Positions 8,027-37,936 of a stretch of 40,666 nucleotides of DNA are shown here, piece by piece. Location: positions 1 to 40,666 of IMG/VR virus record IMGVR_UViG_3300012944_000016; one strand, 5' to 3'. The notes below the pieces were generated by a model. It saw only the letters and a program-made list of their open reading frames with translations. It did not search any database and was not told the DNA's origin. This DNA is from a virus. The stretch's first letter is position 1. Each line of letters begins with the position of its first letter. The position numbers and the translations under genes were made by a program.

Positions 8027-8455
8027 TTATCCTACCTTTCTTGATTCTACAGAAATGAAATTTACCTGCTTCTCAGTTTCTTTAACTAAACTTTCTAAGT
8101 TTAGATTTATATTAACATCTGTACTCTGTACACCTTTAAGATTCTGAGTAAGTTGAGCTAGAAGTTTAATAGCTGTTATAGACTCCTTATTATCTTCTGA
8201 ATCTACAATAGTCATAAGTCTATTTATTCCTTTAGTATGAAAGTTAATATTAAGTTTAGCTTTAGTATAATTAGCAATTAAATTAGTAAAATTAGGATCA
8301 CTAAATAACTGAATAACTTGTTCATATGGAATACTAAACTTATTACTAATATCCTCCGGAGTTGTACATAGTCCTAAAGAGACACTTTCTACTATCTCTT
8401 GTTTTAGTTTACTCTGTTCTAACTCATTCTTTTCTTGTCTAACTAACTGTAACAT
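8027..8455 (-). CDS. Putative terminase small subunit
   Basis: 142 residues. An N-terminal helix-turn-helix-like segment (SLGLCTTPEDISNKFSIPYE, about 26-45) is followed by a helical middle and a C-terminal SxDVNINLNLESLVKETEK region. This is the general plan of phage small terminases, which bind the packaging site and regulate the large subunit. It is the first gene of the leftward operon and lies upstream of large terminase. No clear Shine-Dalgarno sequence precedes ATG 8455, and the leader holds two perfect hairpins. Function rests on architecture and position. Confidence 0.65.
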   Translation of the reverse strand: MLQLVRQEKNELEQSKLKQEIVESVSLGLCTTPEDISNKFSIPYEQVIQLFSDPNFTNLIANYTKAKLNINFHTKGINRLMTIVDSEDNKESITAIKLLAQLTQNLKGVQSTDVNINLNLESLVKETEKQVNFISVESRKVG

Positions 8456-8462
8456 ATTATCT

Positions 8463-8542
8463 AACTAAGTTTATAACTTAGTTGGTTAGGAAGATTTATA
8501 TTTCTTCCTGAAAAGAAACGAAGACACTTTATCTTCCTAACC
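8463..8542 (-). promoter_or_regulatory. Structured leader of the late operon
   Basis: Two nested-order hairpins precede the small terminase start. One has an 8-bp perfect stem with a 5-base loop (8463-8470 with 8476-8483). The other has a 12-bp perfect stem (8484-8495 with 8531-8542, GGTTAGGAAGAT and complement). The gene has no obvious ribosome site, so the leader may control translation or RNA stability. Confidence 0.6.
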
Positions 8543-8604
8543 TCCTAAGTGCTTTATACAGACAAACGAGAATATAAATATAGTAGGCTTTCTACTACAA
8601 CAGT

Positions 8605-8633
8605 AGTATACTATATATAATATACTATGTCAA
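8605..8633 (-). promoter_or_regulatory. Main leftward (late operon) sigma70 promoter
   Basis: Minus strand TTGACA (8633-8628), 17-base spacer, TATACT (8610-8605). Transcription should begin near 8598, giving a leader of about 140 nt before the small terminase gene. It faces away from the early promoter at 8909-8937. Confidence 0.85.
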
Positions 8634-8639
8634 GTATTA

Positions 8640-8908
8640 TTTATATTATAATATAATTTTTTATGTGTGTGTCTTATCGTAGTCAACTAATTTACGACAC
8701 TCCTGGGGGCAAGTGGGTACTGTCTTGATTGGAGCCCCTATTACCTGATTAAGGAAACGACAGTTACCTGTCGTATTGACGTCCTAAAGACGTATTAACG
8801 ACAACGGGCACAGACACTTAGGGTAGGTTACTAACATATATTAAGGGGTTTTGAATAACCACGTCGTCAGCGGAGGTAAGGGCACATATAAGGATACGAC
8901 ACGCTAAG
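8640..8908. promoter_or_regulatory. Control region between divergent promoters (operators or origin?)
   Basis: No plausible gene. G+C is visibly higher than in flanking DNA. Repeated short motifs: ACGACA at about 8693, 8757, 8798 and 8895 with TGTCGT at 8770, and GGGCACA at about 8805 and 8880. Hairpins: 8757-8774 (7-bp stem ACGACAG), 8779-8793 (ACGTC) and a 9-bp long-range stem 8861-8869 with 8911-8919 that overlaps the early promoter. These could be repressor or activator sites, replication iterons, or a structured RNA. The sequence alone does not decide. Confidence 0.55.
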
Positions 8909-8937
8909 TTGACGACGTAGCAAATGGTATATATAAT
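8909..8937 (+). promoter_or_regulatory. Main rightward (early operon) sigma70 promoter
   Basis: TTGACG (8909-8914), 17-base spacer, TATAAT (8932-8937); predicted start near 8944. Its -35 box lies in one arm of the 9-bp stem 8861-8869/8911-8919. Transcripts run through the palindrome at 8969-8996 and then the long structured leader. Confidence 0.75.
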
Positions 8938-8968
8938 ATACGTAATGGTTTAATACTATAACATATAA

Positions 8969-8996
8969 AGGGGAAAGGACTTAAGTCCTTTCCCCT
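8969..8996. terminator. 28-nt perfect palindrome (attenuator or terminator)
   Basis: AGGGGAAAGGACTT followed directly by its exact complement; 14-bp arms. It falls about 25 nt after the predicted early start and is followed by CTATATAATTAG, with no U-run. It could be an attenuator early in the transcript, a bidirectional terminator, or a protein binding site. Confidence 0.6.
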
Positions 8997-8999
8997 ATA

Positions 9000-9080
9000 T
9001 AATTAGAATATATAATATACTATATAGTATATGTATTATTACTATACTATATAATATCTATAATAAATACATATACTTAG
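9000..9080. other. Very AT-rich dyad cluster
   Basis: Almost pure A/T with an 18-nt palindrome (9015-9032) and an 11-bp perfect inverted repeat (9027-9037 with 9066-9076). Candidate DNA-unwinding element beside the motif-rich control region, so a replication origin is possible. Promoter-like TATAAT strings here are not informative because of composition. Confidence 0.4.
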
Positions 9081-9252
9081 AGATTCCCATTATTGGGATT
9101 ATTTATTCCCATTATTGAGACAACCTAATAACTTGTTTAAACATCATAGTTTATATATTGTGGCACGTTGGTTGCTAAGATACTTAGAGTAGCCGGAGAG
9201 AAAGAAAGAGATTAAGCTCTCCGAATTTAGTTAAAGGGAGAGAACATAAACT

Positions 9253-9351
9253 CTAATCTTTAAGATTCTCACACTGATGAGTCTAGTAGGACGAAAGCTA
9301 AGGAATATTTATACTTTATATAGATTTATAATCCTTAGCTCTGTGAGTTAG
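9253..9351 (+). ncRNA. Type I hammerhead ribozyme
   Basis: All core elements are present in order. Stem I 5' strand CUCACA (9268-9273) is followed by CUGAUGA (9274-9280), stem II GUCU/GGAC with loop AGUA (9281-9292) and GAAA (9293-9296). Stem III is GCUAAGGA/UCCUUAGC (9297-9304, 9332-9339), then U9340 and C9341, then stem I 3' strand UGUGAG (9342-9347). Cleavage is predicted between 9341 and 9342. Stem I extends by CUAA/UUAG past an 11-nt bulge on the 5' side, the usual place for contact with loop II. Open stem I makes it type I. Confidence 0.95.
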
Positions 9352-9459
9352 AAAACATAGGCGAGAGCACGTAAGATGCTAATGTGTTTTATCCATACCA
9401 GATATGGACAGATAAGTCTGAAAGAATTATTTCAGCACTGAGAGGTTATTTGACAAATA

Positions 9460-9767
9460 GTATTAGAGAATAGTTGAATCTAGGCAGGTAGAAAGGGCTC
9501 AATATGCCAAAAGGTTCAATGTACACAGAGAGCTATCTTGACTTTCAAGATATTGAGAAGCCAATAACTCCTGGGACTTTCCTTAGCCGGCAACTGAAAG
9601 GTACGGCAGCTAAATACAAAATGCGGTATTTAGCTGTATTGCTACGCGATTTGGAATCTAGGAAAAACGTGAAGAAGGTTAAATCTGTAGGCAACGCAGT
9701 TGCCTACATTAAGACAGAAAACTAAACTAACTTTAATATCTGCCTAGATTGAATTATTCTCTAATAC
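9460..9767 (+). repeat. 28-bp imperfect inverted repeat enclosing a 73-codon frame
   Basis: Arms 9460-9487 and 9740-9767 pair at 26 of 28 positions, with one further G-U and one G-G mismatch. In RNA this closes a domain that contains three strong hairpins and the short reading frame at 9504-9725. As DNA it would resemble terminal inverted repeats of a tiny element, but I see no target duplication. Confidence 0.8.
9504..9725 (+). CDS. Possible 73-aa protein inside the structured RNA (uncertain)
   Basis: An open frame from ATG 9504 with GAAAGGG 6-12 bases upstream, encoding a basic 73-residue peptide ending KSVGNAVAYIKTEN. Three perfect hairpins of 8, 11 and 10 bp fall inside its 222 bases, and the frame lies within a 28-bp stem. 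Either a real small protein shares sequence with RNA structure, or the frame is accidental. No family is recognised. Confidence 0.35.
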   Translation: MPKGSMYTESYLDFQDIEKPITPGTFLSRQLKGTAAKYKMRYLAVLLRDLESRKNVKKVKSVGNAVAYIKTEN

Positions 9768-9994
9768 GTAATAGCTCTATAAGTAATCCGGCGATACCGG
9801 TTCCTAATCTCATTGACTGGACGTAGCCAATAAGTGGCACGGTTCCACCAGTTGGAAATAAAGTAACTTATCTCTTTGGAGAGGTCTGTTGTTATCAGAA
9901 GATAACAACAGTACATAGAATCCCTGATCTAGCTAAGGGATATAAGTTAAATGTGACAGATTTAACAAAGTCATAGCTACGGAGGACGAAATAT

Positions 9995-10138
9995 ATTTAA
10001 TTAACTCTTGAATTGAGCTATTTCCCTTCAAAAGGAAATGATTTATCAATAATTGATTGAAAATATAAAGTATAGACTTGTAAACTTTGAGGTACTATAC
10101 TCAATTGATTATAGCTCAATTGAGGAGTTTAGTTAAAT
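9995..10138 (+). promoter_or_regulatory. Mutually exclusive stems before the first early gene (RNA switch candidate)
   Basis: AATTGAGCTA (10011-10020) pairs perfectly with TAGCTCAATT (10112-10121), extended with interruptions to 9995-10138. The same 3' segment can instead pair locally, CTCAATTG (10100-10107) with CAATTGAG (10117-10124). Only one can form. The GGAGG ribosome site of the next gene begins near 10145. Confidence 0.5.
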
Positions 10139-10154
10139 TTAGATTGGAGGAATT

Positions 10155-10379
10155 ATGATAACTACAGATGAATCCTTGATACTACAAAGTATTTTAAGTA
10201 AAATGAATATTCAAGATATTCTGTATTTTGTAGAAAATACACTATCAGTGAAAGCTGATAAAGCCGGACAAGCTAGGGATTTTAAATATTCGGAAAAGTG
10301 TATAGTAGCAGCTAATCAGGTAAGTAGACTGATTATCTCACTTAAACACAAAATACAGTTGGATGATCGATATGAGTAA
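10155..10379 (+). CDS. Hypothetical early protein (74 aa)
   Basis: First ordinary gene of the rightward block, with GGAGG 6 bases before ATG 10155. 74 residues, mostly helical by eye, with a cationic middle (SVKADKAGQARDFKYSEKC, about 32-50). No recognised family. Expression is likely governed by the structured leader just upstream. The next gene starts within its last codons. Confidence 0.75.
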   Translation: MITTDESLILQSILSKMNIQDILYFVENTLSVKADKAGQARDFKYSEKCIVAANQVSRLIISLKHKIQLDDRYE

Positions 10380-34587: not shown

Positions 34588-34671
34588 ATTATTTATATTG
34601 GGAACGTAGTGGACATTATTTATATTGGAGGTGAAACGGACATTATTCATATTCGAAATGAAATGGAGATT
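34588..34671 (-). repeat. Family C, three tandem 27-bp units
   Basis: Units begin at 34588, 34615 and 34642, exactly 27 bases apart, each of the form ATTATTYATATT(S)GRA... ending GGASATT. Minus strand shows TATAAATAAT in two units. The third touches the stop of the 34670-35290 gene; the first ends 10 bases before ATG 34577. Confidence 0.85.
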
Positions 34672-35290
34672 AGTTTAGTTTTTGTTCAAATTGAATAGTT
34701 ACTGTTATATTTGTTTCTGTAACAGAACCAGTTAATGCTGTTCTTGCTATTCCTATAATATCATTTACTGTTACACTTATTGCCTGTATTTGAGTATATA
34801 AAGTGCGTATAGTATTATTTGTATTATCTAAACTTAAAGCTGTACCAACTTGAACATTATTCTTTGTAATTCTATATGTTAATACTCCACCTGAAGTATG
34901 ACTACCACCATTATAACTTATTTTAAGATTCGTTATATTTATGGAACCTAGTGGTAATCCATATAGTTTTAAAACCTCACCTGAAGTCAAAGCACTCGGA
35001 AGAACTATATAAAAAGTAAGTTCCCTAACTATAATACTTGGACTGGTAATTTTTCCACTATTAGTAATAGAAAGAAGAGTTACTCCTGACTTTCTTGCAT
35101 CTAATATAAGACCAGAGCCTTGTTGATTTAATATTAAACTTGGATTAGTACCAGAAAACTTATGATGTATTTCTTTATCTGTAGATGTTCCATTAAAGGC
35201 ATTATAGATGTTATTAAACTCATTAGTTAGTTCTGTACCATCTACAGTAGTACCACCAGAATAATCCCCAAGTTTTTGGAATGTTGCCAT
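34670..35290 (-). CDS. Tail protein, paralog 1 (206 aa)
   Basis: 206 residues, duplicate of the 33957-34577 gene over the first 80 residues and divergent after. Beta-rich C-terminal half. ATG 35290 follows GGGGG/CATAACC spacing after the tail-hub gene, 3 bases away. Probably a short fibre, tip or nozzle component. Recognised only by duplication, position and composition. Confidence 0.65.
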   Translation of the reverse strand: MATFQKLGDYSGGTTVDGTELTNEFNNIYNAFNGTSTDKEIHHKFSGTNPSLILNQQGSGLILDARKSGVTLLSITNSGKITSPSIIVRELTFYIVLPSALTSGEVLKLYGLPLGSINITNLKISYNGGSHTSGGVLTYRITKNNVQVGTALSLDNTNNTIRTLYTQIQAISVTVNDIIGIARTALTGSVTETNITVTIQFEQKLN

Positions 35291-37662: not shown

Positions 37663-37716
37663 TTTATTTATATTCGAAACGTAGTGGAGATTATTTATAT
37701 TCGAAACGAAGTGGAC
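37663..37716 (-). repeat. Family C, two tandem 27-bp units
   Basis: Units start at 37663 and 37690 (period 27). The minus strand carries AATATAAATAAT. A partial third start overlaps the stop of the 72-aa gene. The adaptor ATG (37660) is 2 bases past the array. Confidence 0.85.
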
Positions 37717-37717
37717 A

Positions 37718-37936
37718 TTATTTAATCTTCTTACGTTTAAAATCAGATTTCTTATTAGAATCAATTAGATAATCTAATTCTTCTGAATATTCTAAATTGG
37801 GCTCCTGATCCTGTTCACTTGTTTGTTCACTTATATCTACTTGCTCTGTAGGAGCTTGAACGTTCGGGACAAGATCAGGAACTATTTTCCTTACTATAAT
37901 ATTACTGTCATGTGAAGAATATATCTCTTTAATCAT
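37718..37936 (-). CDS. Hypothetical acidic protein (72 aa)
   Basis: 72 residues, mainly acidic and disordered (EQVDISEQTSEQDQEPNLEY, about 32-51) with a Lys-rich end (SNKKSDFKRKKIK). Starts at ATG 37936 with AAAAAGGAATAG upstream. Between the 148-aa gene and the adaptor; function unknown. Confidence 0.6.
   Translation of the reverse strand: MIKEIYSSHDSNIIVRKIVPDLVPNVQAPTEQVDISEQTSEQDQEPNLEYSEELDYLIDSNKKSDFKRKKIK

Follow-up and report, generated by a model that had tools for sequence, protein, structure and literature searches.

Putative sigma-54 promoter, hammerhead ribozyme and gene-enclosing stem in the probable leader of a phage replication operon

Long stems processed by RNase III are known from the early mRNA of phage T7 and from bacterial pre-rRNA. 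The hok and aapA1 toxin mRNAs are held inactive by pairing between their 5' and 3' parts. To our knowledge, phage operons under sigma-54 control have hardly been described, and among the papers on sigma-54 and phage promoters in a partial library, no title or abstract described one. Many bacterial hammerhead ribozymes lie near prophage genes, with cleavage of polycistronic transcripts (PMC3088659). The theta ribozymes of gut phages are HDV-like and have been proposed to trim the 3' trailers of tRNAs (PMC10879173). The GOLLD and ROOL RNAs are often found near tRNA genes (PMC12286853).

The window, the whole stretch of DNA analysed here, covers a complete virus record (40,666 bases), which has a direct terminal repeat of 123 bases. 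Among its products are a DNA polymerase, a primase-helicase, a terminase, a portal protein and a ParB-like protein. One set of genes runs leftward from 8455 and another rightward from 10155. The region under study fills the gap between these divergent operons, and the genes that follow it run in the same direction. We believe, with a probability of roughly 0.6, that this region comprises the promoter, the 5' leader and the first gene of the rightward (replication) operon, which would be driven by sigma-54, cut by a ribozyme and probably also cut by RNase III. This reading is based on the sigma-54 site, the hammerhead, the stems in register with the genes, and a hairpin with five compensatory pairs relative to the related phage L005. 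As in T7 early mRNA and pre-rRNA, long stems stand between or around the units of what would be a polycistronic RNA, whereas here a 31-bp long-range stem surrounds a single small mRNA gene and RNase III is the enzyme that we infer. With the type I hammerheads of bacteria and phages (PMC3088659) the locus shares the conserved core, the three stems and the phage intergenic setting. It differs from them in that the ribozyme lies in a putative sigma-54 operon leader of a complete phage genome, beside a gene-enclosing stem, and is known from sequence alone. Like the theta ribozymes (PMC10879173), it is a predicted self-cleaving ribozyme proposed as the processor of a phage transcript, but it is a hammerhead in a probable mRNA leader.

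The phages compared were L005 (80% terminase identity), G004 (49%) and G002. In terminase and portal scans for further relatives, only L005 was close and long enough, and no more came from the genome collection. At the DNA level, the phage and plasmid records yielded no relative of the region. Short BLAST matches in related records were at chance level. When the conserved upstream block was used as a scan query, only the L005 contig was matched. The equivalent region of L005 has three small genes and the same outer plan as that of the window; ORFs of 62 and 67 aa lie upstream in it, and its two stems abut. L005 lacks counterparts of the hammerhead, of 9354-9459 and of 9768-9994, and searches for relatives of these parts found none. 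In L005, a compact three-stem element (GCCTCTACAG..CTGTAGGAT..ATCC..AGAGGC; 7302-7261, minus strand) was also seen after the 67-aa ORF.

Features of the divergent intergenic region and its flanks (window coordinates)
Feature	Position	Strand	Remark
Leftward-leader hairpin, just upstream of gene 8027-8455	8476..8550	-	
Leftward (terminase/structural) operon promoter, sigma-70-type, TTGACA-N17-TATACT	8605..8633	-	Equivalents in L005, G004 and G002
Two near-palindromes TCCCATTATTGGGA / TCCCATTATTGAGA, candidate activator (enhancer) sites	9085..9120	+	Block conserved in L005
Putative sigma-54 (-24/-12) promoter TGGCACGTTGGTTGC	9161..9175	+	Transcription start expected near 9187
First leader hairpin CGGAGAG/CTCTCCG	9194..9223	+	From sequence
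Predicted type I hammerhead ribozyme, core CTGATGA 9274-9280	9253..9351	+	Expected to cut between 9341 and 9342
Small hairpins between ribozyme and long stem	9354..9459	+	Only in this phage
5' arm of 31-nt gene-enclosing stem	9460..9490	+	
Probable 73-aa gene	9504..9725	+	Enclosed by long stem
3' arm of 31-nt gene-enclosing stem	9737..9767	+	
Structured spacer with 11-bp perfect hairpin	9768..9994	+	Only in this phage
Long hairpin immediately before the ribosome-binding site of 10155-10379	9995..10138	+	Conserved in L005
74-aa gene, next in rightward operon	10155..10379	+	Start region conserved in L005

The promoter candidate has the form TGGCACG-N4-TTGC and shows zero mismatch to the sigma-54 consensus TGGCACR-N4-TTGC (GG at -24, GC at -12). 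In an ad hoc weighted scan it was the best sigma-54 site of the whole genome, and only 0.0002 such sites were expected in simulated sequence for this strand of the intergenic region. The top sites of L005 and G004 fell at the same place, in scans that covered one stretch of L005 and the stretch of G004 with its rightward genes. The 4-base spacer is different in all three phages. The two near-palindromes, 14 bp each and 22 bp apart, lie upstream of the promoter, and their conservation in L005 would fit candidate activator sites. In the phages, no sigma-54 activator domain passed the cut-off and no sigma-54 DNA-binding domain was detected; the promoter would therefore have to rely on an activator from the host. 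The first-pass annotation had taken RNA structure to begin at 9160. The span holds as RNA from approximately 9187, while 9160 to about 9186 is the putative promoter.

On the other side of the gap, the leftward promoter was found in all four genomes examined as TTGACA-N16/17-TATAxT, with N16 in G002. The window, L005, G004 and G002 each carry a long hairpin between this promoter and the gene, with different sequences. Hairpins before the first gene seem to be a habit of this phage group. Further elements were observed in this flank. On the minus strand at 8658-8688, the motif CACACACATAAAA with TTGACT 17 bases upstream is kept in the window, L005 and G004; it is a second leftward promoter-like element with an unusual fixed spacer sequence. 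A GC-richer element (8690-9001, 43%) contains the conserved GGGGCAAGTGGGT and then a 19-nt perfect-looking hairpin (8964-9001). The stretch 8690-8945 was considered as a second structured RNA and rejected, as its fold did not go beyond shuffles (z -0.8). Elsewhere in the window, repeats of about 27 bp (TTATTTATATTCGAAACGAAGTGGACA) lie between structural genes at 34589-34674 and 37664-37722. Four copies of ATTTCTTGACTTAGAGAAAT stand near gene ends (2382, 7142, 15032 and 26001), two per genome side, and are possibly promoters or regulator sites.

A self-cleaving ribozyme motif had been noted at one end of the region, and its core and three stems proved complete. All core bases of a type I hammerhead (CUGAUGA, GAAA, NUH) are present with stem I open, and the stems of 6, 4 and 9 bp are free of mismatches. 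Rfam gave a weak partial match to the type III hammerhead at 9253-9302 (22.7 bits against a gathering cut-off of 48.5). Because this score stayed below the cut-off, the assignment was made by descriptor and hand check. The descriptor scan found the hammerhead only in the window and not in the related loci. With looser limits, chance matches occurred at 10 per 600 simulated genomes; compared with these, the hammerhead of the window has longer stems and lies in the right place on the right strand. By predicted energy, the hammerhead fold falls about 5 kcal/mol short of an alternative local fold.

The central stem (9460-9490/9737-9767) is 90% complementary and headed the list of inverted repeats for the 40.7-kb record. 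It consists of 16 and 14 bp with one mismatch between them, which is in the range of at least 20 bp of double-stranded RNA for an RNase III stem. At the matching place, L005 has a 31-nt stem of 87% complementarity around a different ORF of 78 aa. The loops are 246 nt in the window and 255 nt in L005, and TAGAAAG just inside the 5' arm is common to both start regions. The two stems differ at nearly every pair. This shows, for the predicted stem in these two genomes, that pairing persists while the sequence changes. The register of the central stems between the two phages is uncertain, and compensatory pairs there were not used as a covariation statistic. ORF 9504-9725 is probably a gene. No relatives of its protein were found. 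Its codon usage was borderline (0.02), on a scale where 95% of in-frame segments exceed 0.14 and 95% of out-of-frame segments fall below -0.14; a nearby 105-aa gene with a G002 homologue scored -0.02.

The long stem may instead be a translation lock, which would keep the 73-aa message inactive by 5'-3' pairing until it is processed or unwound. AAAG/CTTT pairs extend the stem over the weak ribosome-binding site, and the small ORF is without assigned function, both of which suit a lock. Against it, the single-sequence structure prediction for the 73-aa protein, a single long helix with low confidence, lends no support to a toxin, and the ORF enclosed in L005 is a different protein. We consider this explanation unlikely.

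The hairpin before gene 10155-10379 is kept in L005 with compensatory changes. When 9995-10138 was aligned with L005, 22 pairs were kept, of which 16 were identical and 5 were changed on both sides.

The stems reported by the first-pass annotation were present where it had placed them, and the structure is unusually strong, which agrees with its reading. Perfect stems occur at 9296-9304/9332-9340 (9 bp), 9607-9617/9626-9636 (11 bp), 9686-9695/9699-9708 (10 bp), 9886-9896/9901-9911 (11 bp) and 10011-10021/10111-10121 (11 bp). The minimum free energy of 9187-10138 was -291, against -209 ± 7.7 in 25 dinucleotide shuffles (z -10.7), whereas three control stretches of the same phage gave z from -0.9 to -4.6. 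The long-range stem was far beyond chance: the best inverted repeat scored 30.6, and the highest score reached in 100 shuffles was 22.1. There were 6 perfect stems of at least 9 bp with a loop of at most 150, compared with a mean of 0.77 and a maximum of 5 in 300 shuffles. Most of the signal came from two parts, the stem around the gene (z -8.7) and the hairpin at the 3' end (z -6.5). The values were modest for the hammerhead alone (-2.4), 9354-9459 (-2.3) and 9768-9994 (-2.7). For the reverse strand the fold was almost as strong (z -8.9). Energy therefore does not set the direction, which follows from the ribozyme motif, the promoter and the genes.

The folding of both strands also suits a reading in which the inverted repeats work at the DNA level, perhaps as an origin of replication or a partition site, and the RNA structure is a by-product. 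The divergent intergenic position and the ParB-like gene of the phage agree with such an element. However, a hammerhead is meaningful only as RNA, the stems are in register with gene starts, and the central stem keeps its pairing and not its sequence, unlike a protein-binding site. We give a DNA element a slim chance.

Equally slim is the chance of a new large structured RNA class, in which a hammerhead-released RNA from 9342 to about 10140 would act as an RNA or RNA assembly like GOLLD and ROOL, and the ORF would be incidental. The strong overall fold, the strong hairpins inside the 73-aa ORF (the loop alone has z -3.7) and the lack of an Rfam match favour this class. The locus is phage-borne, several hundred bases long and rich in stems, as GOLLD and ROOL are (PMC12286853). 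It differs from them in having no Rfam match, no tRNA nearby and a probable gene inside, and it is not conserved as RNA in the relative. GOLLD, ROOL and HEARO had no Rfam match at gathering score, and none appeared when permissive filters and E values up to 5 were allowed. This bears out the earlier remark that the region could not be placed in GOLLD or ROOL, and membership in the three classes appears excluded as far as Rfam models can tell. The proposal of a single large ornate RNA was not supported: the region divides into a putative sigma-54 promoter at its start, a probable gene in the central stem and a hairpin before the ribosome-binding site of the next gene. A new class also fits poorly with L005, which has genes at this place; no relative with the inner domains was found, and the window has no tRNA genes. 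The start region of the enclosed ORF is common to the L005 gene, its codon usage is near-normal, and the 3' hairpin is part of the next gene's leader. For the RNA switch that had been suggested, no family matched; the only switch-like feature is a pair of competing arms near the 5' end (GGAGAG at 9195 or 9238 against CTCTCC at 9217). Compared with a free-standing giant RNA, an mRNA leader and first gene with processing elements are the better fit to the evidence. Slightly less credible than the giant RNA is a bifunctional product of hammerhead cleavage, about 800 nt long (9342 to about 10140), that would code for the 73-aa protein and also work as a structured RNA of a new class. A group I intron was considered from sequence motifs and rejected without Rfam support.

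A separate array was observed in the relative G002 (L012). On the minus strand, from about 2330 to 1590, hairpin units of 60-80 nt follow one another directly over roughly 740 nt (z -8.5), around one Rfam tRNA (L012 2112-2183). It is a candidate tRNA-like or large structured RNA array, and a better place to search for a GOLLD-like RNA.

Under the operon-leader reading, host sigma-54 RNA polymerase with an enhancer-bound activator would start near 9187. The new RNA would fold a type I hammerhead and cut itself between 9341 and 9342, which would remove about the first 155 bases and leave the message with a 5'-hydroxyl end. The 31-bp stem would bracket the small gene as processing stems bracket bacterial rRNAs, and the 144-nt hairpin would stand just before gene 10155-10379. 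RNase III would cut the stems and so divide the polycistronic RNA into separate pieces, each capped by a stem and each with a stability and translation of its own. Ribozyme and stems would most likely serve to cut and protect the message. The better alternative fold, the lack of the hammerhead in the relatives compared, the ORF with borderline codon usage and without homologue, the missing activator domain and the support for the central stem from just two genomes count against this reading. If it is correct, the conservation of a sigma-54 operon in three related phages would link phage replication to the host regulators that act through sigma-54. A leader that combined a self-cleaving ribozyme with a gene-enclosing stem would be a case of a phage that uses RNA parts to divide its own message.
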